A stretch of 64,000 nucleotides of DNA from Bacteroidia bacterium (GTDB taxonomy: Bacteria > Bacteroidota > Bacteroidia > AKYH767-A > OLB10), in contig JAEUTH010000036.1 in NCBI GenBank assembly GCA_016788165.1, positions 1-64,000 of the forward strand, read 5' to 3'. Below are positions 506-10,430 of the stretch, one piece after another. Each line of letters starts with the position of its first letter. Position 1 is the first letter of the stretch. Under the pieces are notes generated by a model. It was not told the DNA's origin. It did not search any database and was given only the letters and a program-made list of their open reading frames with translations. The position numbers were made by a program, and so were the translations under genes.

Positions 506-1531
506 TTATAATTCATTAATTTCCTTTTCAATTAAACGATACTTGTCTTTTACATCTTCTCCTGAATAAAAGTCTAGTAAGTCTTTTTTGGTTAGCGTTC
601 CTTGACTTAAAAAGCGTTTCAGATACTCTTGGTTGAATTCCATTAAAAGGATTGATTTTTCCAATTGTTTCAAAATTGCTTTGTTGTTGTCAATGTTATT
701 ATGAACCAAAGATTTTATTGTCAACACTTCGTTTATGTCTTTGATGATACGGTTTACCATCATTGCCAAAATATCTTTATCTAATTCGATTTCTTTTGCA
801 TTTAAAGCAATGTCTCTCGCTAACATATACGCAATAGCCAAATTGCTGTAATCTCCTTTTTGTGAATTGATAATGGCAACAAAACCAACTCCCGGAATGT
901 AACCCACATTTTCAAAATTCTTAAGAATGGAGTTTTCTACTAAGGAAATATCAAAAACAATCAAACTTACTTTGCTGTCTCTGTTGGCTTGTGCTTCTAT
1001 TAACTGACTCCAAGCCGTATCAGATTTTCGAGTAAAAATGTCTTTGCTTTCAATGTCTCCTAAACGAACGCTTTTATCAAACTTACATTCAATAGCTATT
1101 TTCAAATCAGGCGTTCCGTTTACTTCACAAATTATATCACCTGTTTTGTTTTTCGGTAAATTCCCTGCTGTATTACCCGTTAAAATAGCTCTATCTTTTA
1201 ATTTTTTGTCTGCAAAGTATTGGTTTAAGAACTCTGCAATTTCATCTTCTGCTAAAACGCCTTTAATAGTTGATTTATAGAAAAGTTCTTTTTTTATTTC
1301 AAAAATCATCTTCAAACTTTCGAGTTCTGTTCCTAACTCATTGGTTGTTTTTGACAGAAAAGAGGAAATTCGGTCTTCCATTAGAGCCAACACTCCAATA
1401 TAAATTGCTCTAAGCAATTTATCATCTCTTTCAGTTGCAGGAAGATTGTCAAAGTAATTGAAAACAATTTGGTTTTCGATTTCAAATTCTTTGATTTCAA
1501 TTCTTTTGAGTTGCTGGTTTATTTTAAGCAT
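506..1531 (-). CDS. PD-(D/E)XK nuclease-like protein, last gene of the defence operon
   Basis: This 341-residue soluble protein carries a restriction-endonuclease-like signature. GD at 131-132 sits in a short strand (GDIICEV), followed by a strand ending in E148-C-K150 (IAIECKFDKS), which fits the D-Xn-E-X-K metal-binding core. The N-terminal half is predicted helical and the C-terminal third is charged and helical, perhaps a coiled coil for protein contacts. The ATG lies 2 bp after the KTSC gene stop, so it should be co-transcribed with the SIR2-HerA and restriction-modification genes. Nuclease activity is inferred from the motif alone. It could be a DNA-end or methylation-dependent nuclease, or an inactive sensor. 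I cannot name a family. Confidence 0.75.
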   Translation of the reverse strand: MLKINQQLKRIEIKEFEIENQIVFNYFDNLPATERDDKLLRAIYIGVLALMEDRISSFLSKTTNELGTELESLKMIFEIKKELFYKSTIKGVLAEDEIAEFLNQYFADKKLKDRAILTGNTAGNLPKNKTGDIICEVNGTPDLKIAIECKFDKSVRLGDIESKDIFTRKSDTAWSQLIEAQANRDSKVSLIVFDISLVENSILKNFENVGYIPGVGFVAIINSQKGDYSNLAIAYMLARDIALNAKEIELDKDILAMMVNRIIKDINEVLTIKSLVHNNIDNNKAILKQLEKSILLMEFNQEYLKRFLSQGTLTKKDLLDFYSGEDVKDKYRLIEKEINEL

Positions 1532-1533
1532 TG

Positions 1534-1743
1534 TTAAACTTTAGAATATCTATAAACTCCCTTTATGTTTTGTGCCAAAAATTGACCGTGGGAATCGGCT
1601 TGCATTAATCCTTGATAAATATGCTGAGGCACATCAAAATACTGATAGATTGAATTATTCAAAAATTCAATCTCTAATGTTGAAGTGTTTTCATCATATC
1701 CAATTGAAGCGATATTTGATGATGTTACAGGTTTTCTTTCCAT
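1534..1743 (-). CDS. KTSC-domain small protein
   Basis: This 69-residue protein is essentially one KTSC domain. The N-terminal KPVTSSNIASIGYD block is followed by a LEIEF strand, YQYFDVP, a helix containing the family-typical LMQADSHGQF, and a closing IKGVYRYSKV. KTSC domains are small beta-rich modules of unknown biochemical role, often found as stand-alone proteins. Here the gene sits 8 bp after herA and 2 bp before the nuclease-like gene. It is therefore placed as an accessory or adaptor of the defence module; that role is inference. The full domain is present and there is no sign of decay. Confidence 0.8.
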   Translation of the reverse strand: MERKPVTSSNIASIGYDENTSTLEIEFLNNSIYQYFDVPQHIYQGLMQADSHGQFLAQNIKGVYRYSKV

Positions 1744-1751
1744 TTTTATAT

Positions 1752-3617
1752 TTATTTAATTATACGTTCAATTTTCGGGTTTTGAGCTCTCCAAGTTTCA
1801 ATAAACTCTTCATAATTTGGATCTTCTTCCATTTTATTACCCCATCCGCCAGGGCGAAGCGAGTCTTTAGATTCAATTTCATCAAAAACAATTGGGTCTT
1901 GGCTATCTGGTCGTCTATCTTTTGAAGGAGCCTTTATAATTGTTCTCATAGGAAGTTTAACTGCTTCACCTAAAATTATTGCTTCGCCTGTTTTTAAAAT
2001 CGGCAACATACTAGTAAGACCTTCGAGGTTATCGGAAACAGCACTTGTAATATGGCTTCTGTCAGTAGAGTTTGAAAGTCTTAAAGCGAAGAAAGTACCA
2101 CATTGAGAAAGAATAGTAGAGTTTATTTCGGATGGTCTTTGGCTTACTATCATTGTTCCAATACCATATTTTCTACCCTCTTTTACTATTTTTTGGACAA
2201 TAGAAAGAGCACTTCCTTCAGAGTTTAAATAATTGTGAGCTTCTTCCATTAACAATAATAGTGGTCTTTCCTTTCCTCCTTGAGATAGGTTTCGAGACCA
2301 AAATAAGGCATCATAGATAATCCTTAACAAAACTCCAATTATTGTGTTCAATATTGTAATTGGAACACCTGATAAATCTAAAATGGTTATTGGTTTATCA
2401 CTTCCTATCCAACCTTTCAATAAGTCATCTAAATCCTTGTCAACCTCCCCATCGTGTTTTGGAGTCAAATCTGTAGGTTTGAAAATGAAATCGAATCTTG
2501 GAATTCTCAACTTTGAGCCAAGTGAATGAAGCTGTTGTCCATTTGTTAAAGGAGATTCATTTTGGTACTGAACGCGGTCACCATTAGCTCCATTTGAATT
2601 GATTTTTTTGAAGATAGGAGGAAAACCATTAACTGGGTCTCCTATAATTTCATTTCCATCTTTATCTAATTCATAAGCCAAAGGTTTTCCTTCTTTATCT
2701 TGATACAGTTTACCAAGTGTCTGTGTATATAAGTCATACCAAAGATGATTTAAACTAAAAGGAACTGGAGAATCAACATTTAAGGTATCAGTATTCAACC
2801 CTTTTCTAGGATATTTTTCTAAACTCTTTCTTTTTTCAGACAATACTCTTTCTAATATTGTATTGTAATCTTTTTCATTTGAAATTTTTCCGAAACTAAC
2901 CTCACACAGTTCGTCAAAATTTAAGGCCCAAAACGGAAGTAGAAGTTCTTTTTCAACACTTCCTGCACTTTTATCTGCATTTATCTTATAAATATTGGCT
3001 TTATCTTTCAATGCCTGACCATATTCACCGTGAATATCAAAAACCAAAATTCGAGAAGATGGATATTTCTCTGTATCTGATAAAGCATTTAATAAGCTTG
3101 CAACAGTTGTAGATTTACCCGAACCTGTTGTTCCAACAACTGCAGAATGTCTTGTTATTAATTTGTTTACATCAATTAATGCTGGAATAGATTCGGCACC
3201 TGCTATATGCCCAACATTGACAAAATAAGGTTTGTCTGGTTGTCCGTAAATTCTTTTTAAATCTTCCTCTGAGACTAAATGAACTTCGTCACTTATAGTT
3301 GGATATTGGGAAATACCTCTTTGAAATTCACCTGCTCTTTGTCCTTCACCAACTAATTGAATCGTAATCCATCTATTGCCATAAGGTTGATTTTCAACTT
3401 GATTTTCAGGTACAGCACCTGCACCGACTTGTGTAATAATGCCAAATAAATAATTATATCCAATAGGTATTTTTACAAAGCTCCCAATTTGTCCAATTCG
3501 ATAACCCTCTCCGTTAACATAAGTCAAACCTGAAAGAGAATCATTAACCATTGCTACCCTTATGGTTGTACCAGTTACATCTTGAACTGTTCCTAAGTAT
3601 GTAGAATTATTTTTCAT
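1752..3617 (-). CDS. herA: HerA-family ATPase of a SIR2-HerA (Nezha-type) defence module
   Basis: This 621-residue FtsK/HerA-type P-loop ATPase has an N-terminal beta-barrel HAS-like region (about 1-130). Walker A is GTTGSGKST (162-170), followed by the HerA-typical VFDIHGEYG (192-200), Walker B LLLLMEEAH (453-461), an arginine-finger region KEGRKYG (479-485) and the sensor motif VSQRPSE (491-497). HerA proteins form hexameric rings; in known SIR2-HerA systems the ring organises SIR2 subunits into a large complex that degrades NAD+ on phage infection. The start codon lies inside the 3' end of the SIR2 gene (11-bp overlap), which indicates translational coupling and matched stoichiometry. All catalytic motifs are present. 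Action on DNA versus a purely structural role cannot be read from sequence. Confidence 0.92.
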   Translation of the reverse strand: MKNNSTYLGTVQDVTGTTIRVAMVNDSLSGLTYVNGEGYRIGQIGSFVKIPIGYNYLFGIITQVGAGAVPENQVENQPYGNRWITIQLVGEGQRAGEFQRGISQYPTISDEVHLVSEEDLKRIYGQPDKPYFVNVGHIAGAESIPALIDVNKLITRHSAVVGTTGSGKSTTVASLLNALSDTEKYPSSRILVFDIHGEYGQALKDKANIYKINADKSAGSVEKELLLPFWALNFDELCEVSFGKISNEKDYNTILERVLSEKRKSLEKYPRKGLNTDTLNVDSPVPFSLNHLWYDLYTQTLGKLYQDKEGKPLAYELDKDGNEIIGDPVNGFPPIFKKINSNGANGDRVQYQNESPLTNGQQLHSLGSKLRIPRFDFIFKPTDLTPKHDGEVDKDLDDLLKGWIGSDKPITILDLSGVPITILNTIIGVLLRIIYDALFWSRNLSQGGKERPLLLLMEEAHNYLNSEGSALSIVQKIVKEGRKYGIGTMIVSQRPSEINSTILSQCGTFFALRLSNSTDRSHITSAVSDNLEGLTSMLPILKTGEAIILGEAVKLPMRTIIKAPSKDRRPDSQDPIVFDEIESKDSLRPGGWGNKMEEDPNYEEFIETWRAQNPKIERIIK

Positions 3618-4830
3618 CTAATTTAGTTTGATTATAGCCAATAAGTGCTTGAAGAAAATCACCCAACTTTGAAAAATCTCCTAGTTTCAAAAGGTGTTTT
3701 TCTTCTGAATCTTCCGTGGACGGTACTTTATGAATGCAATTTGCCAAGTTATCTTCCTCCTCCATTTCTAATGGGATTTTCCATTTCCCTCTTACAGTTC
3801 CAATCATAGCTTCATCAAAAGACCATAAAGCAAGGTTGTTTCTGTTTTTGGCTAATTGTATTGCTTTAGGATAACGCTCAATTAGATTTTTTTCTGGGTC
3901 TTCAAAGGTTAAAGTCTCGAATAACATAGCTATAACCATAGAATTGGGGTTTGCCTTTAAAGCACTTAAAATGGTATCATTCAAATGCTCATCATTAAAT
4001 GAATAGCCTGATAATACCATTAATGAATTTGGCAGTCTTAAAAATCTGTTAAGCTGGTCTATTAGAGCTAAATATGGCATTTTTCTACTTTGTTCATATT
4101 TCAAATGAGAAGGATATATCAAATATGAATCACCATTAGCCTTTGTTAAACTCGACCTATAAACTTCTTTGTTTTCTTTTTGAAACCAATTTATTGAACC
4201 GTGAATTTTCCATAGTCTAGTCCAATGTTTTGGAATCAAATTATCCTCAACTGCACGCAAGTCAAAGAAAGATTGTCTTGAACCTACAAATCCATCAAAA
4301 TATGGAATTGATAAATCTTCAAACGCTTCTTCAAGAAGCAAATCATAGTTTGTAGTAAATACTTCAATTGGTTTTTCTCTATCAATTGAAATCCATTGGG
4401 CAAGTTTATGGTATGGCGTATCTTTATCGGGGAGATTTACTTCAAGCTTTTCGACTATTTTATTGCAAATATTTTTTTCAAGTTCAACCAAATTTTCTTT
4501 TGTGAAACCTCTTACAGAATTTCCAACAGAGACCTCCTTTAATCCTCTAAGAAAGCTCAAAATATCTTCAATATTTTTCTCGTCTTTTTCTGAAAGGATT
4601 ACTTCATCAATTAGCTTGTCAAAATCGTTTTTCTCTTCTGTTTTAGATTTTAATTCATCTGTAACAAACTGAGTTAGTTTTGCCACATCAGGTATTAGAG
4701 GCCATTTATCATCTGGCATATTTACTGCTAGTGGGCAACCTGCCGAAATAAAAAAACCTAATGGTTTTTTGTCCTGTGATAGTGTTTGTCTTAAAAACTT
4801 TATATGTTTTACTGGGTCGTGTGTTGCCAT
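3607..4830 (-). CDS. SIR2-family NAD+-consuming effector of a SIR2-HerA module
   Basis: This 407-residue protein has a defence-type SIR2 domain. The NAD-binding entry is GFFISAGCP (25-33), in place of the classical GAGxS, with a conserved PLIPDV nearby. FTTNYD (158-163) is the typical TTNYD motif, KIHGS (208-212) carries the predicted catalytic H210, and SGYSFND (274-280) matches the GxS-D strand. Anti-phage SIR2 proteins act as NADases that drain the cell of NAD+. The last about 70 residues are acidic and less family-like, possibly the HerA contact or a regulatory tail. The gene starts 6 bp after the methyltransferase stop and overlaps herA by 11 bp. Loss of enzyme activity is unlikely because N161, D163 and H210 are all present. 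Confidence 0.92.
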   Translation of the reverse strand: MATHDPVKHIKFLRQTLSQDKKPLGFFISAGCPLAVNMPDDKWPLIPDVAKLTQFVTDELKSKTEEKNDFDKLIDEVILSEKDEKNIEDILSFLRGLKEVSVGNSVRGFTKENLVELEKNICNKIVEKLEVNLPDKDTPYHKLAQWISIDREKPIEVFTTNYDLLLEEAFEDLSIPYFDGFVGSRQSFFDLRAVEDNLIPKHWTRLWKIHGSINWFQKENKEVYRSSLTKANGDSYLIYPSHLKYEQSRKMPYLALIDQLNRFLRLPNSLMVLSGYSFNDEHLNDTILSALKANPNSMVIAMLFETLTFEDPEKNLIERYPKAIQLAKNRNNLALWSFDEAMIGTVRGKWKIPLEMEEEDNLANCIHKVPSTEDSEEKHLLKLGDFSKLGDFLQALIGYNQTKLDEK

Positions 4831-4836
4831 ACTATA

Positions 4837-6444
4837 TTATTTATTTCTATTTAGTCTCCTTGCCGAAAGCTTCTTCCAAATACTATCCGCAAGTTTTATT
4901 TCTTTATCCGTAAAGCCGTATCCGTCTTTCAGGATTCGCTTGTTGGTGATTTTTAAAATTTCATCAATGCTTTTTTTATCTCGCATCATTTTGTCAATGG
5001 TGGCAAGTAAATCAGAATTGTCGGTTTGGTAGGGGAGCAGTATTTTTTCTGCTTCGCTTGGCATCAATTCCAATACGCCTCCGCCATAACTACGACCAAC
5101 AATTTCAGAAAAAGCCAAAGACAAGGAATTGTAAAAACTTGCTATGAAAGCGTTTTTGTCCGTGTCTTTTTTCATAAATACACGGTGCATTGTGTCGGTT
5201 GTATATGCGTTTGCTTCGTTTAGAATTAAACGAGGATAGAGATTGTTTCTTCTGATAAATAACGCATCAGAAAGTTTGATGGAAGGAATCACAAACCAAT
5301 CATCACGAATGCCTGTTTTGTAGCCTTTGTTTACGCCCATTGATTCACCTAAACGAATGTATGAGTTCGCTCCTTTGTGTCCGTTAATTTTCTCTTTTGC
5401 CGGAAATACCAATAAGTGGGCTTTTGCCTTGGTTTGTCTATTAAGTTTCCAATCCTTTTCCGTGAAAATTACACTGTTGACCTGAACACTTCTGCCAACC
5501 ATTGGTTTTGCGTATGCTTTCAGGTCGTAAGCTTCTACAACAGGCAAAGGAACAGTGAAGTAATCATTTGCTCCTGTGGTAATGCCAACTTCTACACTGG
5601 CATAATTACTAATTGTCGGAACTTTTCGTTTTTTGGCAATCTGTTCCAAAAAGTCAATTTCTTCTTGCTCTAAAAAGTAATAAGTCCATTTATTTGACTT
5701 GAAATCTATCTTTTTGGAAGGACTTTTTAGGATGTTTACATCAAGCTTTTCAAGGTCTGAAGCATCTCTTAGTTCAAGGTGCTCAATTAAGTGCGAATCA
5801 CTTCCGTTTTTCTCGCAAAGCAATAAAACCACTTCTTGCTGAATGTCAGGGAAAACCAACTTTTCAAAAGAGATGATATTGATTTTATTGTAGAAATGTG
5901 CCAAAAACTCACGGAGTTGTTGAGCATACGAAACCTGTAACAATTCCGCAGGAATTACAAAACCAATCTTTCCTTTTTCTTTGAGTAACAAACTTGAACC
6001 AACCACAAAAGAGACCCAAGCATTGGTCAGTTTTGAATATTTCAGTTTAGCCCGATTGAAAACTTTAATGGCTTCATTTTGCTGTTCTTCCTGAAAATAT
6101 TGGTAGCGAATGTAAGGCGGATTGCCCACCACTAAATCAAACTTCTGTGTGGTTTCATTGCAATACAAATGAAAATCTGTATTGATTACATCCTTGTTAT
6201 TGAGTTTAATCTTTTCCGCTTTTTCTGCTTCCACATCATCAAATTCAATGGCTGTTACTGAGTTGAATTTATGGTTGTTCTCTTTCAATTGTTCAAGGAA
6301 AACTCCATCACCACAACTTGGTTCTAAAATTTCATAGTCTGAACTTCCATTGATGCCCCATTTCAAAATGAATGCAGCAATTGGCTCAGGCGTGTAAAAT
6401 CCACCTCTCAATTTCTCGGCTGTTGCGTTCTTAATTAGCTTCAT
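4837..6444 (-). CDS. Stand-alone N6-adenine DNA methyltransferase (Eco57I-type partner)
   Basis: This 535-residue gamma-class N6-adenine methyltransferase has an AdoMet motif I in EPSCGDGVF (41-49), preceded by the GGFYTPEPIA motif X region, and the catalytic NPPY at 108-111 in DLVVGNPPYIRYQYF. The C-terminal half (about 260-535) is the expected target-recognition region. It contains the SIxxSDALFIRRN-like block seen in Eco57I/TaqI-type enzymes. Eco57I itself, as I recall, pairs a fused enzyme of about 997 aa with a methylase of about 544 aa; the gene here and its neighbour match both sizes. The partner methylates the strand left unmodified by the fused enzyme. It overlaps the fused enzyme gene by 14 bp. 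Confidence 0.9.
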   Translation of the reverse strand: MKLIKNATAEKLRGGFYTPEPIAAFILKWGINGSSDYEILEPSCGDGVFLEQLKENNHKFNSVTAIEFDDVEAEKAEKIKLNNKDVINTDFHLYCNETTQKFDLVVGNPPYIRYQYFQEEQQNEAIKVFNRAKLKYSKLTNAWVSFVVGSSLLLKEKGKIGFVIPAELLQVSYAQQLREFLAHFYNKINIISFEKLVFPDIQQEVVLLLCEKNGSDSHLIEHLELRDASDLEKLDVNILKSPSKKIDFKSNKWTYYFLEQEEIDFLEQIAKKRKVPTISNYASVEVGITTGANDYFTVPLPVVEAYDLKAYAKPMVGRSVQVNSVIFTEKDWKLNRQTKAKAHLLVFPAKEKINGHKGANSYIRLGESMGVNKGYKTGIRDDWFVIPSIKLSDALFIRRNNLYPRLILNEANAYTTDTMHRVFMKKDTDKNAFIASFYNSLSLAFSEIVGRSYGGGVLELMPSEAEKILLPYQTDNSDLLATIDKMMRDKKSIDEILKITNKRILKDGYGFTDKEIKLADSIWKKLSARRLNRNK

Positions 6445-9418
6445 ACAATTCTTTGATTAATGGGATTAATGAATCTTCACTACCTAAATCGTATAATTTA
6501 GCTAATAGCTTTTCTAGGTTGGCTTTCTCTCTTACAAATTGTCCTTGCATTGGAGTTAAAGCTCTTTTATTTCCTGCGTTTGCATCTATTTGGTCATAAA
6601 TGCTGATTAATTCTTTTTGAGTTTCAACGATTTTGTTGTGAAGTGCTTTTTGTTTTGTGTCTGAAAAATCAATCTTTCTGATGGGTAGATTTTTCAAAAC
6701 CTTAGTTCCTCTTGCTATGTAACCACCTCTGAAAACTTCGCCATATAAAGCACTAAACCACTCCAAATATTTTGAGTTGAGAATAGCTTGAATGTAGTAA
6801 ATAGAGTAGTCGGAAGTTGTTGGAATTGCAACTACACAATATCCTGCTGTTCCACCTGACGAAATCAAAGTTCCGTGAACATCTATTGCGTATTTATCCC
6901 CAACAGAGAGAACACCAACAATAATTTTTGAAGGAAGTCCACAACTATCCAAACTTTGATGTCTGCCGTATCTGTGCCATTCATTTTTTGTTTTTGGCTC
7001 AGGTTTTATGTCTCGTTTCGGATTATTTAAAATGGTTTTATGCTTTTGCAGATAGTCATAAGCTAAAGGAAATTTCTTTTGAATTGTTGTTAGAGGAATT
7101 ACATCTACGCCTGTTTTGGTAGGTTCATAAGGATAAATTACCCTTGCATTCGGTTTGAATGTTCGGTAAGTGTATAAATTATCTTCGCCTGATGAAGTTT
7201 GAAAGTAGGGTTTTGTTATTTCCTTTTCAATCTTGTAATCAACACCTTTTTTCGTAAAATAGAAGTGCTTCTTGTCCTCTTTAGTTGGCGTAAAAATGTA
7301 TACATCATTTGCACTGGTCTGAATACCATTAAAAATATTATCGCTTCCAACCAAATCGTTAAGTTTTACACTTTGAGAAACGATTTTATTATAGGCGTTA
7401 GTCAATTCGGGTGGAACTAAAACCCAAACTTCACTATCCAATTCATCTGTTTTCTTTGTGCCGTATTTTGCTGCCTCCGGCTCTCTTACTTTCCAACTTT
7501 TCAGGCTTTTTACTTCCGCATATTGGAAAGTCTTTTGAGGTTTCTTGTTCAAAATTAGCAAACAAGTGTAGGTTGTTTTATCTGCAAAAACCTGATTTGC
7601 ACCAAATGATAAGATTGAATGTAAATACTCTTTGTCTGTGAGTAATTCACGAAGTTTTTTACCTGCTCCAACTTTTGTAAACTTGCTCGGAACGATATAG
7701 CCTAAAACTCCATCATCAGCCAACAAGTTAATTCCTTGCTCAAGGAAAAGGAAGTATTTATCAAACTGCTTATATGCTGAATCGTAGTTGGTTTTATAAA
7801 GTGGCAATTCAAGCGGGGTAATGTTTTTCATATCCTCCGACTTCATATAAGGTGGATTGCCAACAATGACATCAAAGCGAAGTTTTGAAAAATCAAACGG
7901 ATTGATAATTACCTGGTCTTTCTTGTTGGTTACTTGTTTCGGGTTCAACAAACTGTTTCCGAAAAAGATGTTTTCAGAAAGGTCGGGTAAAACTGGTTTT
8001 GTTTTGTTGGTTGAGTTTACATCTTCACCCTCAAGTAATTTGAGAAGCAATCCAAATTTGGCTGCTTCAACTGCATTATAATCTTTATCAACTCCATAAA
8101 TACAATTCAATAAAAGTTGTCGCTTAATTTCAAATGGCAGTTTGTAGGTATTGATATTAGTTTGAATGAGTTTTGACTTGTCTTTTTTCAGGTAGTAATC
8201 AATCAGAATGTCATTGAGTAATTGAAAAAGTTCCAATAAAAACGCACCTGAACCGCAAGAAATATCAGCGAATTTCAGCTTTAGAATTTCCTTATCTGTT
8301 TTCCCTTCACATTTTTTCAAAACGGTATTTCTTAAAATATCGCTTATGATAAATGTTGGTGTGGTGATAATGTCACGGTCAACATTTTCAGGTTTTTTGA
8401 CTAAAACAACAGCACCGCTTTGTACGGTCAATTTTTCTGAAAGGAAGATTTCATAAATGCTTCCAAGTACATCAGAAGAAAAAACACTGAATGAATAGGG
8501 GCTTTCAGGATAATACAATTGTTTGATGATTGTCCAAAATACCGAACTGATATTTTCTACAATCTTATCTTTTAGCAATTGGTCAAAAAGTCCTGAATTA
8601 TATCGTTTGTCGGCTTCTTCAAATTTCTTTATGAGTGCTTTGAAGTCGTTTGTGTTGGCAAACTTCAAAAGCGTTTGATAATCTTCTAAATTCCTGTCCT
8701 CACAAACACGCAGAAACAAAACCCTGTTCAAATAACTTTGAACAATGTCATTCAGTTGTTGCTCGTCAATTTTTGGGTCGTGTTTGTAAATTTCAGAACC
8801 AAGGGCTTTTCTCCATTCGTTGATTTGGTTTAGAAATAAATTGTCAATCGAGTACTGATTGATTTTGCTTTCAATTTCTTTCCACTCTGTTTCAAATTCA
8901 CCTGAATAAACTGATTCCTTTCCTAAAAGCTGTTTGATTTCTTCAAACTTACTTTCGTATTCTGTGTAATGATATTTTTTTACAAGTGCCTTTGGGTAAG
9001 TATCTTCTTTTTCGACTTTTACGGAAGTGTCATATATGATTAAATATTCAAAGTTTGAGAGAACTGAAATTTTCAACTTGGCTGTAAATCCGTATCGTCT
9101 GACTTGTTTTGCTGTGTCGTTGTTTGACTCAATAGAAACACAAGGTTTTTTTGCTTCCAAAAAATATTTTCTTTCAGAAAAAAGTCGGAAAGTGTAATCA
9201 GGTTTTTTGGAGTGCTCGGAAGCGTTTGCTTTCAATGCTTCTTCCAAAATTACTTCTCGTTCGTTGGTTGGTTTACCCGCATTGTTTTTAATGTCCCAAC
9301 CAAGCAACTCGAAAAAAGGGTCTAAGAAATCACTGCGAAGCAGTGTTTCATTATACTTGCTTGTCAAGTAATAATCCCTGTCGGCTGTATATTTTTCTAT
9401 GAGTTGCTTTATTGTCAT
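6431..9418 (-). CDS. Eco57I-like type IIG fused restriction endonuclease-methyltransferase
   Basis: This 995-residue single-chain restriction-modification enzyme begins with a PD-(D/E)XK nuclease domain: P73-D74 in KKPDYTF, then E88-A-K90 in YFLEAKKP. A helical linker follows (about 190-350). The methyltransferase domain has motif I ADISCGSGAF (384-393) and catalytic NPPY (521-524). The C-terminal 350 residues are the target-recognition domain, with the family-typical SSGGTAGYCVVAIP stretch. Such enzymes bind an asymmetric site, methylate one strand and cut some distance away, using or stimulated by AdoMet. Overlap of the ATG with the regulator stop (ATGA type) and the matching partner methylase downstream support one RM system. 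All catalytic residues seem intact. Confidence 0.92.
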   Translation of the reverse strand: MTIKQLIEKYTADRDYYLTSKYNETLLRSDFLDPFFELLGWDIKNNAGKPTNEREVILEEALKANASEHSKKPDYTFRLFSERKYFLEAKKPCVSIESNNDTAKQVRRYGFTAKLKISVLSNFEYLIIYDTSVKVEKEDTYPKALVKKYHYTEYESKFEEIKQLLGKESVYSGEFETEWKEIESKINQYSIDNLFLNQINEWRKALGSEIYKHDPKIDEQQLNDIVQSYLNRVLFLRVCEDRNLEDYQTLLKFANTNDFKALIKKFEEADKRYNSGLFDQLLKDKIVENISSVFWTIIKQLYYPESPYSFSVFSSDVLGSIYEIFLSEKLTVQSGAVVLVKKPENVDRDIITTPTFIISDILRNTVLKKCEGKTDKEILKLKFADISCGSGAFLLELFQLLNDILIDYYLKKDKSKLIQTNINTYKLPFEIKRQLLLNCIYGVDKDYNAVEAAKFGLLLKLLEGEDVNSTNKTKPVLPDLSENIFFGNSLLNPKQVTNKKDQVIINPFDFSKLRFDVIVGNPPYMKSEDMKNITPLELPLYKTNYDSAYKQFDKYFLFLEQGINLLADDGVLGYIVPSKFTKVGAGKKLRELLTDKEYLHSILSFGANQVFADKTTYTCLLILNKKPQKTFQYAEVKSLKSWKVREPEAAKYGTKKTDELDSEVWVLVPPELTNAYNKIVSQSVKLNDLVGSDNIFNGIQTSANDVYIFTPTKEDKKHFYFTKKGVDYKIEKEITKPYFQTSSGEDNLYTYRTFKPNARVIYPYEPTKTGVDVIPLTTIQKKFPLAYDYLQKHKTILNNPKRDIKPEPKTKNEWHRYGRHQSLDSCGLPSKIIVGVLSVGDKYAIDVHGTLISSGGTAGYCVVAIPTTSDYSIYYIQAILNSKYLEWFSALYGEVFRGGYIARGTKVLKNLPIRKIDFSDTKQKALHNKIVETQKELISIYDQIDANAGNKRALTPMQGQFVREKANLEKLLAKLYDLGSEDSLIPLIKELYEAN

Positions 9419-9726
9419 TTCTTCTTATTCGCTTTAATATATTTGGCTCTTTCCTCTGCTACTTTCAGTGCTTCTATTCCTAAATCTTCGTCTTGAATTT
9501 CATATAAAATCTTGTCACTTAGGAACGAAACCAAAAGTTCGTCTGCGCTGTAATCGTATATGTCGGCAAGTTTAAGAACTACTTCTTTTGTGATTTTCCG
9601 CTCTCCACGTTCCATTTTGCTCAAAATAGCAACGTCAACGTCAAGCAATGCAGCAACTTTCCGCAATGGAAGTTCCTTTTCTTCTCTTATGTGTCTTAGC
9701 TTTTCGCCTATTGTTTCTGTTGACAT
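9415..9726 (-). CDS. XRE-family transcriptional regulator (controller-like protein)
   Basis: This protein has an HTH_3 domain over most of its first 65 residues: IGEKLRHIREEKELPLRKVA, then LDVDVAILSKMERGERKI, ending in LADIYDYSADELL. The tail KVAEERAKYIKANKKK is charged. I favour the ATG at 9726 (103 aa) over the in-frame ATG at 9741 (108 aa): AGGA lies just before it, and the candidate -7 box at 9749-9756 would put transcription initiation close to 9741. It is the first gene of the defence operon and its stop overlaps the next ATG, the position of controller proteins in restriction-modification systems that delay endonuclease synthesis. Repression or activation cannot be told from sequence. 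Confidence 0.88.
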   Translation of the reverse strand: MSTETIGEKLRHIREEKELPLRKVAALLDVDVAILSKMERGERKITKEVVLKLADIYDYSADELLVSFLSDKILYEIQDEDLGIEALKVAEERAKYIKANKKK

Positions 9727-9734
9727 AATTCCTA

Positions 9735-9756
9735 TTGACATAATGTGTCAAAATTA
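9735..9756 (-). promoter_or_regulatory. Candidate operator and -7 box of the defence operon
   Basis: A perfect inverted repeat, TTGACA-TAATG-TGTCAA (9735-9751), overlaps a minus-strand TAATTTTG (9749-9756) that fits the Bacteroidota -7 consensus TAnnTTTG. A direct repeat of TTGACATAAT begins at 9720 and at 9735, 15 bp apart, giving a second half-site towards the gene. The position directly before the XRE gene is that expected for autoregulation. No clear -33 TTTG was found at the usual spacing, so the promoter call is tentative while the repeat itself is certain. Confidence 0.55.
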
Positions 9757-9824
9757 GAAAAAGATTTTTGATTTGTATCCTTTTAATTCAAATTCTTTTC
9801 AACATCCTTGTCGAGCGTTGGGAA

Positions 9825-9886
9825 ATTGGCTCTTTTGCAAAACTTGGGTCGTGTGTCGACTTGTGCGGTTTTGCAAATGTGCCAAT
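9825..9886. repeat. Nested hairpin repeat, right copy
   Basis: The outer arms are ATTGGCTCTTTTGCAAAAC (9825-9843) and GTTTTGCAAATGTGCCAAT (9868-9886). They pair over 19 positions with two T-T mismatches (9831/9880 and 9833/9878), the same two mismatches as in the left copy. The inner stem is GTCG-TGTGT-CGAC (9848-9860), followed by TGTGCG. Stem bases differ from the copy at 426-480 yet still pair, so structure is conserved rather than sequence. GAGCGTTGG occurs just outside the left arm (9813-9821). The element lies about 75 bp upstream of the defence operon promoter region. Confidence 0.75.
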
Positions 9887-10067
9887 GTGTGGCTGGTTAA
9901 AATTACTTTTTAAAATGTGCGGTGGGAAAAATTTTTAAAACATTCGGGTCGGATTTGTGTGTCGCCAAAGTTAGTCCGTAAGTTTTTGTCAAGATGTCAA
10001 AGTTCGTTTTTCAGATGTCTGTTTTTTCGGAGTACGGTCGTTCTTTAGGCTTGCTTACAACTTGTTT

Positions 10068-10102
10068 ATACCTGAACCTATTCCGTTTTTAGGTTCAGGT
10101 AT
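10068..10102. repeat. 13-9-13 inverted repeat beside the recombinase remnant
   Basis: ATACCTGAACCTA (10068-10080) and TAGGTTCAGGTAT (10090-10102) are perfect 13-bp inverted repeats around the 9-bp spacer TTCCGTTTT. A further GGTTCAGGTT occurs at 10147-10156. Two 13-bp arms around a short spacer is the layout of simple tyrosine-recombinase core sites. The remnant of such a recombinase starts at 10161. There is no T-run after either arm, which argues against an intrinsic terminator. Function as an attachment site is inference. Confidence 0.5.
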
Positions 10103-10160
10103 CCGCCCAATATAGGTATGTTTATCGTATGTTTTATATTTTGATTGGTTCAGGTTAATT

Positions 10161-10388
10161 TTAAACATCTAAATCATCTAATGGGCTTTTTATTTCGCTT
10201 AGCTTTTTAGTACTCACTTGTGTATAGATCATCGTGGTTTTGGGTGCGTTGTGTTCCAACAGTTCCTGTATGTAGCGCATATCGGTTCCGGCCTCAAGTA
10301 AGTGTGTGGCATACCTATAGCATGGTATGCAAGGTGGTATCTTTAATAATGGTGTTTTTCCTGTTATGTTTTGCTTGATTAATTCCAC
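10161..10388 (-). pseudogene. Remnant of a tyrosine recombinase/integrase (C-terminal end)
   Basis: The readable C-terminus has YATHLLEAGTDMRYIQELLE, then KTTMIYTQVS with the nucleophilic tyrosine, and ends in IKSPLDDL. This matches the end of IntI/Xer-like integrases common in Bacteroidota. The reading frame breaks near 10317, inside the HxLRH box: the other frame reads KDTTLHTM before a stop, as expected after a 2-bp deletion. Everything N-terminal to about 10388 is missing, so the gene is both truncated and frameshifted. It marks the right edge of the island, with ordinary chromosomal genes following. Confidence 0.8.
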
Positions 10389-10430
10389 AAGCTACATTTA
10401 GTTACATGTGCATGGTTGCGTGGTATATAA

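Follow-up and report, generated by a model that had tools for sequence, protein, structure and literature searches.

The closest solved relative of the defence proteins described here is the SIR2-HerA complex (PDB 8WIV, 8WLD, 8WOC, 8WOD and 8WOF), which is matched by the HerA (E = 2.6e-197) and SIR2 (E = 2.3e-92) proteins of the window, as we call the 64,000-nucleotide stretch of Bacteroidia DNA that was analysed. The Nezha system likewise consists of a gene pair encoding a SIR2 NADase and HerA. It is reported as two genes, and the available part of that report mentions neither a KTSC protein nor the nuclease-like protein considered below (PMC11559045). In HerA-DUF4297 systems a PD-(D/E)XK nuclease is encoded beside HerA (PMC11291478), and a putative nuclease of this kind is found beside HerA in the window as well. 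The available part of Iyer et al. 2022 describes neighbourhoods in which HerA is joined by a KTSC gene and by an endoDNase, of a family not named there, that replaces the sirtuin, the two being mutually exclusive (PMC9503650). This is the one relevant remark on KTSC that we found in open papers.

The locus in the window differs from these systems in several respects. SIR2, HerA and a separate KTSC gene are followed by a gene encoding a 341-aa nuclease-like protein, here named NUC. In contrast to the exclusive arrangement in the available text of Iyer et al., dozens of loci contain both SIR2 and the nuclease-like gene, and NUC is also common to other effectors. Unlike the HerA-DUF4297 nuclease, NUC has no match to DUF4297 at E ≤ 1, coexists with SIR2, and occurs with effectors other than HerA. 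We find that one conserved nuclease-like gene stands behind interchangeable defence effectors, and the sequence-only reading that drew attention to this gene was right to do so.

Organization of the operon

The operon is encoded on the minus strand in the order HTH regulator, type IIG restriction-modification (RM) enzyme, methylase, SIR2, HerA, KTSC and NUC. Gene families in the window were assigned using Pfam and PADLOC.

506 to 1531, minus strand: NUC, 341-aa putative PD-(D/E)XK-type protein of a previously undescribed family, encoded at the end of the operon
1534 to 1743, minus strand: KTSC, 69-aa stand-alone KTSC domain, a detached version of the domain at the C terminus of a solved HerA
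1752 to 3617, minus strand: HerA, 621-aa DUF87/HerA ATPase with Walker A motif GTTGSGKST
3607 to 4830, minus strand: SIR2, 407-aa SIR2_2 protein with TNYD and KIHGS motifs, predicted NADase
4837 to 6444, minus strand: M.Eco57I-like adenine methyltransferase, whose 3' end forms the left-hand boundary of the exchanged cassette
6431 to 9418, minus strand: type IIG restriction enzyme-methyltransferase of the Eco57I class with an HSDR_N-like N terminus
9415 to 9741, minus strand: XRE/HTH controller-like protein, encoded at the start of the operon
1534 to 4830, minus strand: exchangeable slot, occupied by SIR2-HerA-KTSC in the window and flanked by the conserved RM genes and the conserved NUC

The ORFs for KTSC and NUC directly 3' of HerA are confirmed, as are the gaps of 8 bp between HerA and KTSC and 2 bp between KTSC and NUC that had been read from the sequence. 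SIR2 and HerA are adjacent in one operon, overlap by 11 bp, and constitute a Nezha-like gene pair. Both have strong PADLOC matches (E = 5.4e-145 for SIR2 and 4.8e-165 for HerA), and against the antiphage HerA models of NCBIfam the window HerA scores far below the cut-off.

The region 3' of NUC (positions 1 to 505) is made up of a diverged dispersed repeat, further copies of which lie on contigs C4, C11 and C21 of the same genome. The idea that the repeat behind NUC is an integron attC site is not supported, a 23-base core being found once in the genome. Upstream of the operon, positions ~9742 to 10430 resemble the terminal part of a tyrosine recombinase gene (MRYIQELLEHNAPKTTMIYTQVS), which suggests that the operon may have been inserted beside an integrase remnant.

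KTSC as a part of SIR2-HerA

The 69-aa protein is a KTSC domain (Pfam PF13619; E = 9.5e-28, 96.1 bits against a gathering cut-off of 25). It had been put forward as a possible new component of SIR2-HerA defence, and it is not new. For both HerA and SIR2 of the window, the closest solved relative is a chain from one shared set of PDB entries (8WLD, 8WOC, 8WOD and 8WOF), and the window KTSC aligns end to end with residues 629–696 of the solved HerA chain (PDB 8WIV series). The solved SIR2-HerA complex thus already includes KTSC, as a C-terminal HerA domain, whereas in the window this domain is a separate gene followed by the nuclease-like gene.

The same relationship is seen across related loci, where KTSC is fused to HerA or encoded by the third gene in nearly all cases. 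HerA-KTSC fusions are also found in two of the loci containing NUC (L033 and L043). For 25 Bacteroidota-type loci, one of which (L071) is imperfectly paired, the pairwise identities of SIR2, HerA and KTSC correlate with r values of 0.89–0.96 (0.89 for HerA and KTSC), indicating that KTSC travels with SIR2-HerA. These loci therefore constitute a SIR2-HerA-KTSC subtype in which KTSC, fused to or directly after HerA, diverges along with it. We conclude that KTSC belongs to the SIR2-HerA unit, as a HerA domain that is made separately, and not to NUC.

Three-gene SIR2-HerA-KTSC loci without NUC are common, being carried for example by plasmids from Sphingomonas, Bradyrhizobium, Sulfitobacter, E. 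coli C5 and Pseudoalteromonas. The E. coli C5 plasmid locus (L114, positions 3740–7036) was found in one of 5426 complete genomes. In a sample of 395 Bacteroidota genomes most SIR2-HerA loci are likewise of this three-gene type without NUC, and full-length NUC occurs in only three genomes. Most SIR2-HerA-KTSC loci thus do not contain NUC.

KTSC domains are also present in other proteins of NUC operons. AlbA_2/HATPase proteins with a C-terminal KTSC replace the RM genes in five operons (L014, L015, L017, L018 and L020), mostly following the same HTH regulator, and in L028 KTSC is fused to a PIN-like protein.

A conserved nuclease-like family

NUC represents a new, highly conserved family that has not been described. 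By sequence it has no significant match in Pfam, PADLOC, NCBIfam or the PDB; no PADLOC family was recovered at E ≤ 1 and no NCBIfam family at E ≤ 0.1, and a profile built from the NUC alignment likewise matched nothing in the PDB. DUF4297 is absent from its Pfam matches at E ≤ 1, so NUC does not group with DUF4297/Cap4. The one match among the PHROGs is at chance level (E = 0.011) and uninformative. Homologues of NUC are 60–98% identical and occur mainly in Bacteroidota, with an additional alphaproteobacterial clade. We retained 80 relatives from genome contigs, with others located on a Paracoccus plasmid, in other genomes and on one viral contig; none was found in phage records. In the open papers that we searched, a scope with most subscription journals and preprints outside it, we found no description of a nuclease-like gene shared by different defence effectors.

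The residues D132, E148 and K150, already singled out in the sequence-only reading, are invariant (100%) in 85 homologues, and Q176 is also conserved. They constitute the D...(D/E)XK signature of the PD-(D/E)XK superfamily. The accompanying suggestion of a nuclease-like protein is supported by the predicted core; the profile searches return no family. The AlphaFold2 model is mediocre (mean pLDDT 74.9, pTM 0.52). Its core elements (helix 65–108, strands 114–117, 133–136 and 144–150, helix 173–184 and strand 188–194) follow the alpha-beta-beta-beta-alpha-beta order of PD-(D/E)XK proteins with moderate confidence. A second-look (VIA) structural alignment of residues ~71–245 matched Bax1 (Z = 9.4), BsaWI (9.2), Can2 (8.6) and McrC (8.6), with further matches to BpuSI and Hjc (overall Z from 9.4 to ~6.6), all consistent with a restriction-enzyme fold, and leaves other folds possible for the N- and C-terminal helices. 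A Foldseek search with the whole model returned nothing at E ≤ 0.001. We assign the PD-(D/E)XK fold to the core with moderate confidence.

The most conserved stretch of NUC is a poorly modelled helical region (residues 41–90) that lies before or outside the catalytic core and may be a binding surface. The dN/dS values for NUC are 0.03–0.07, including those between copies situated behind different effectors, and denote strong purifying selection.

Effectors preceding NUC

The same-strand gene order around NUC was read in 85 loci, and the association with defence genes is far beyond chance. The gene or genes before NUC encode SIR2-HerA in 42 loci, OLD-TOPRIM in 16, AAA_13 (PDC-S06) in 11, an SMC-like ATPase with a membrane protein in six, and PDC-S46 in three. 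The single cases are an LmuB-like SMC, an AbiA-like reverse transcriptase (RT), a UG39 RT, an AlbA_2-KTSC protein and a PIN-KTSC protein; the last two loci are a solitary NUC and a truncated contig. NUC is thus directly preceded by effectors of at least ten unrelated kinds, with a median gap of 7 bp to the upstream gene, either KTSC or a defence effector (81 loci). Most are DNA-engaging P-loop ATPases (HerA, OLD, AAA_13 and SMC-like) and a few are RTs or AlbA_2 proteins. Co-occurrence of NUC with SIR2-HerA across genomes is therefore clear, and the proposal that NUC is a component of SIR2-HerA stands as an operon link, but it is too narrow since half of the loci carry other effectors. The association is retained at ~60% identity in Alphaproteobacteria. 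In three loci (L029, L037 and L045) SIR2-HerA-KTSC is followed by a second effector, stacked before a single NUC.

The OLD/Gabija-type ATPase-TOPRIM, PrrC-like AAA_13 (PDC-S06), PDC-S46 and DRT/AbiA RT systems that occupy this position are recognised without NUC as catalogued in PADLOC, and the distant plasmid relatives of OLD and AAA_13 that we examined have neither NUC nor KTSC. A search of the 395 Bacteroidota genomes found no OLD effector at E ≤ 1e-60, leaving no same-phylum control for OLD without NUC.

Tiny genes often precede the effectors other than HerA, encoding KTSC, KTSC-like (71–74 aa) or WYL-like (82 or 95–97 aa) proteins. Those upstream of OLD or AAA_13 are found in L016, L029, L036, L039 and L050, among others. 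The 71–74-aa 'MERY...YSY' gene before OLD, AAA_13 or SMC may be a second KTSC, an assignment that is weak (hhalign probability 9, E = 0.0036; hmmsearch matches from 5e-7). Assignment of the 95–97-aa genes to WYL was rejected, as they fall below the Pfam cut-off. Relatives of the KTSC-like proteins are also present within phage proteins, including one family annotated as virion structural (phrog_24656).

Cassette exchange

Across the NUC tree, effectors have been exchanged in a nearly random fashion. Their type requires 34–36 changes, compared with a minimum of 11 and a mean of 40.5 for shuffled labels; this count is approximate because about half of the inner branches are weakly supported. The well-supported branches alone force several independent changes. 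NUC divergence tracks that of SIR2-HerA-KTSC weakly (r = 0.27–0.33).

One such exchange can be localized by comparing the window with locus L013. The RM genes are 90.6% identical at the DNA level up to window position 4838, one base before the end of the methylase ORF, and NUC is 93% identical from position 1525, yet the SIR2-HerA-KTSC proteins between them share only 34–46% identity. The exchange is thus bordered by the stop codon of the methylase on one side and codon 3 of NUC on the other. The same slot between the RM genes and NUC is occupied by AAA_13 in L016 and PDC-S46 in L051.

In two genomes (G263 and G035) ~32 codons of the NUC 3' end are left behind other defence-like operons, and these tails are apparent scars of cassette exchange. 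The remnant in L143 (1381–1479) lies behind a DEAD-type helicase locus. That in L144 (near 4451–4546) lies behind SIR2 and a 1339-aa ATPase and has an in-frame stop. A few loci (L015, L049 and L055) keep NUC while the effector is disrupted or absent, so hitch-hiking through recombination is possible.

Possible roles of NUC

The observed gene order, conservation, swapping and fusions suggest one helper common to interchangeable antiviral weapons. We tentatively favour NUC as an effector-independent accessory DNase encoded behind a slot for interchangeable anti-phage effectors, a reading in which its nuclease activity, DNA as its substrate and its cooperation with the effector are all inferred. 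Because NUC is conserved behind changing partners, its target is probably constant as well, the simplest candidate being DNA. As the last gene of the operon, NUC would probably be translationally coupled to whichever effector precedes it, and the effector cassette is exchanged by recombination while NUC remains. During infection NUC would most likely cut or trim the DNA of the infected cell or phage. Given that most partners are DNA-engaging ATPases, this cutting may add DNA damage to the action of the main effector or make ends for the effector ATPases. In a wider reading, which we propose slightly more cautiously, one conserved nuclease may cooperate with whichever effector stands before it, across ten or more unrelated types (NADase-HerA, OLD, PrrC-like, SMC-like and RT among them), the weapon being changed by swapping the cassette in front. 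The same kinds of effector occur without NUC, as in the SIR2-HerA-KTSC relatives and the distant OLD and AAA_13 relatives, and NUC is therefore optional, which makes it neither the only weapon nor a required antidote.

Alternatively, NUC could be a regulator that keeps the effector in check while the cell is uninfected or degrades a trigger that arises spontaneously, allowing dangerous effectors to be hosted safely. We consider this unlikely, although one NUC serves many toxic effectors from a few bases behind each, the purifying selection is very strong, unlike that expected for a phage-facing sensor, and NUC is still present in L015 and L049, where the effector has decayed. The many SIR2-HerA-KTSC loci without NUC argue against an obligatory antidote, and the full active site retained in NUC does not favour regulation either.

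It is less probable again that NUC is a recombination anchor with no role in immunity, which mediates or guides the exchange of cassettes or merely supplies homology. The exchange borders within NUC and at the methylase stop codon fit such a role, as do the NUC tails behind unrelated defence operons and the NUC without an effector in L055. However, homology alone fails to account for the dN/dS near 0.04 and the invariant active site, the alphaproteobacterial clade stably keeps NUC tightly coupled with SIR2-HerA, and no shared DNA target was identified beside the slot.

One original suggestion for this gene was a DNA-cutting arm for SIR2-HerA, which would make NUC a dedicated nuclease driven by HerA as in DUF4297-HerA or NurA-HerA. 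HerA is present in 42 of the 85 loci and known systems do pair HerA with PD-(D/E)XK nucleases (PMC11291478), but half of the loci lack a HerA immediately preceding NUC and NUC divergence hardly tracks that of HerA (r = 0.33), making this explanation quite improbable. That NUC belongs to the surrounding RM systems is very improbable, since NUC sits behind the effector rather than the RM genes and most loci, such as that on the Paracoccus plasmid, have no recognised RM gene nearby, even though the window and roughly 15–18 loci lie inside or beside type IIG or type I RM operons.

Implications

The KTSC result means that some SIR2-HerA systems described as two genes are three-domain systems. Accessory genes are usually thought of as the property of a single system, and a shared NUC would differ from this. 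If one such protein is shared by the SIR2-HerA, OLD, PrrC-like, SMC-like and RT systems, this would point to a common step, whether a trigger, a licence or DNA processing, behind systems that have been studied apart, and the exchange of defence cassettes in Bacteroidota would be explained. NUC would also serve as a marker gene, with whatever directly precedes it a candidate effector.
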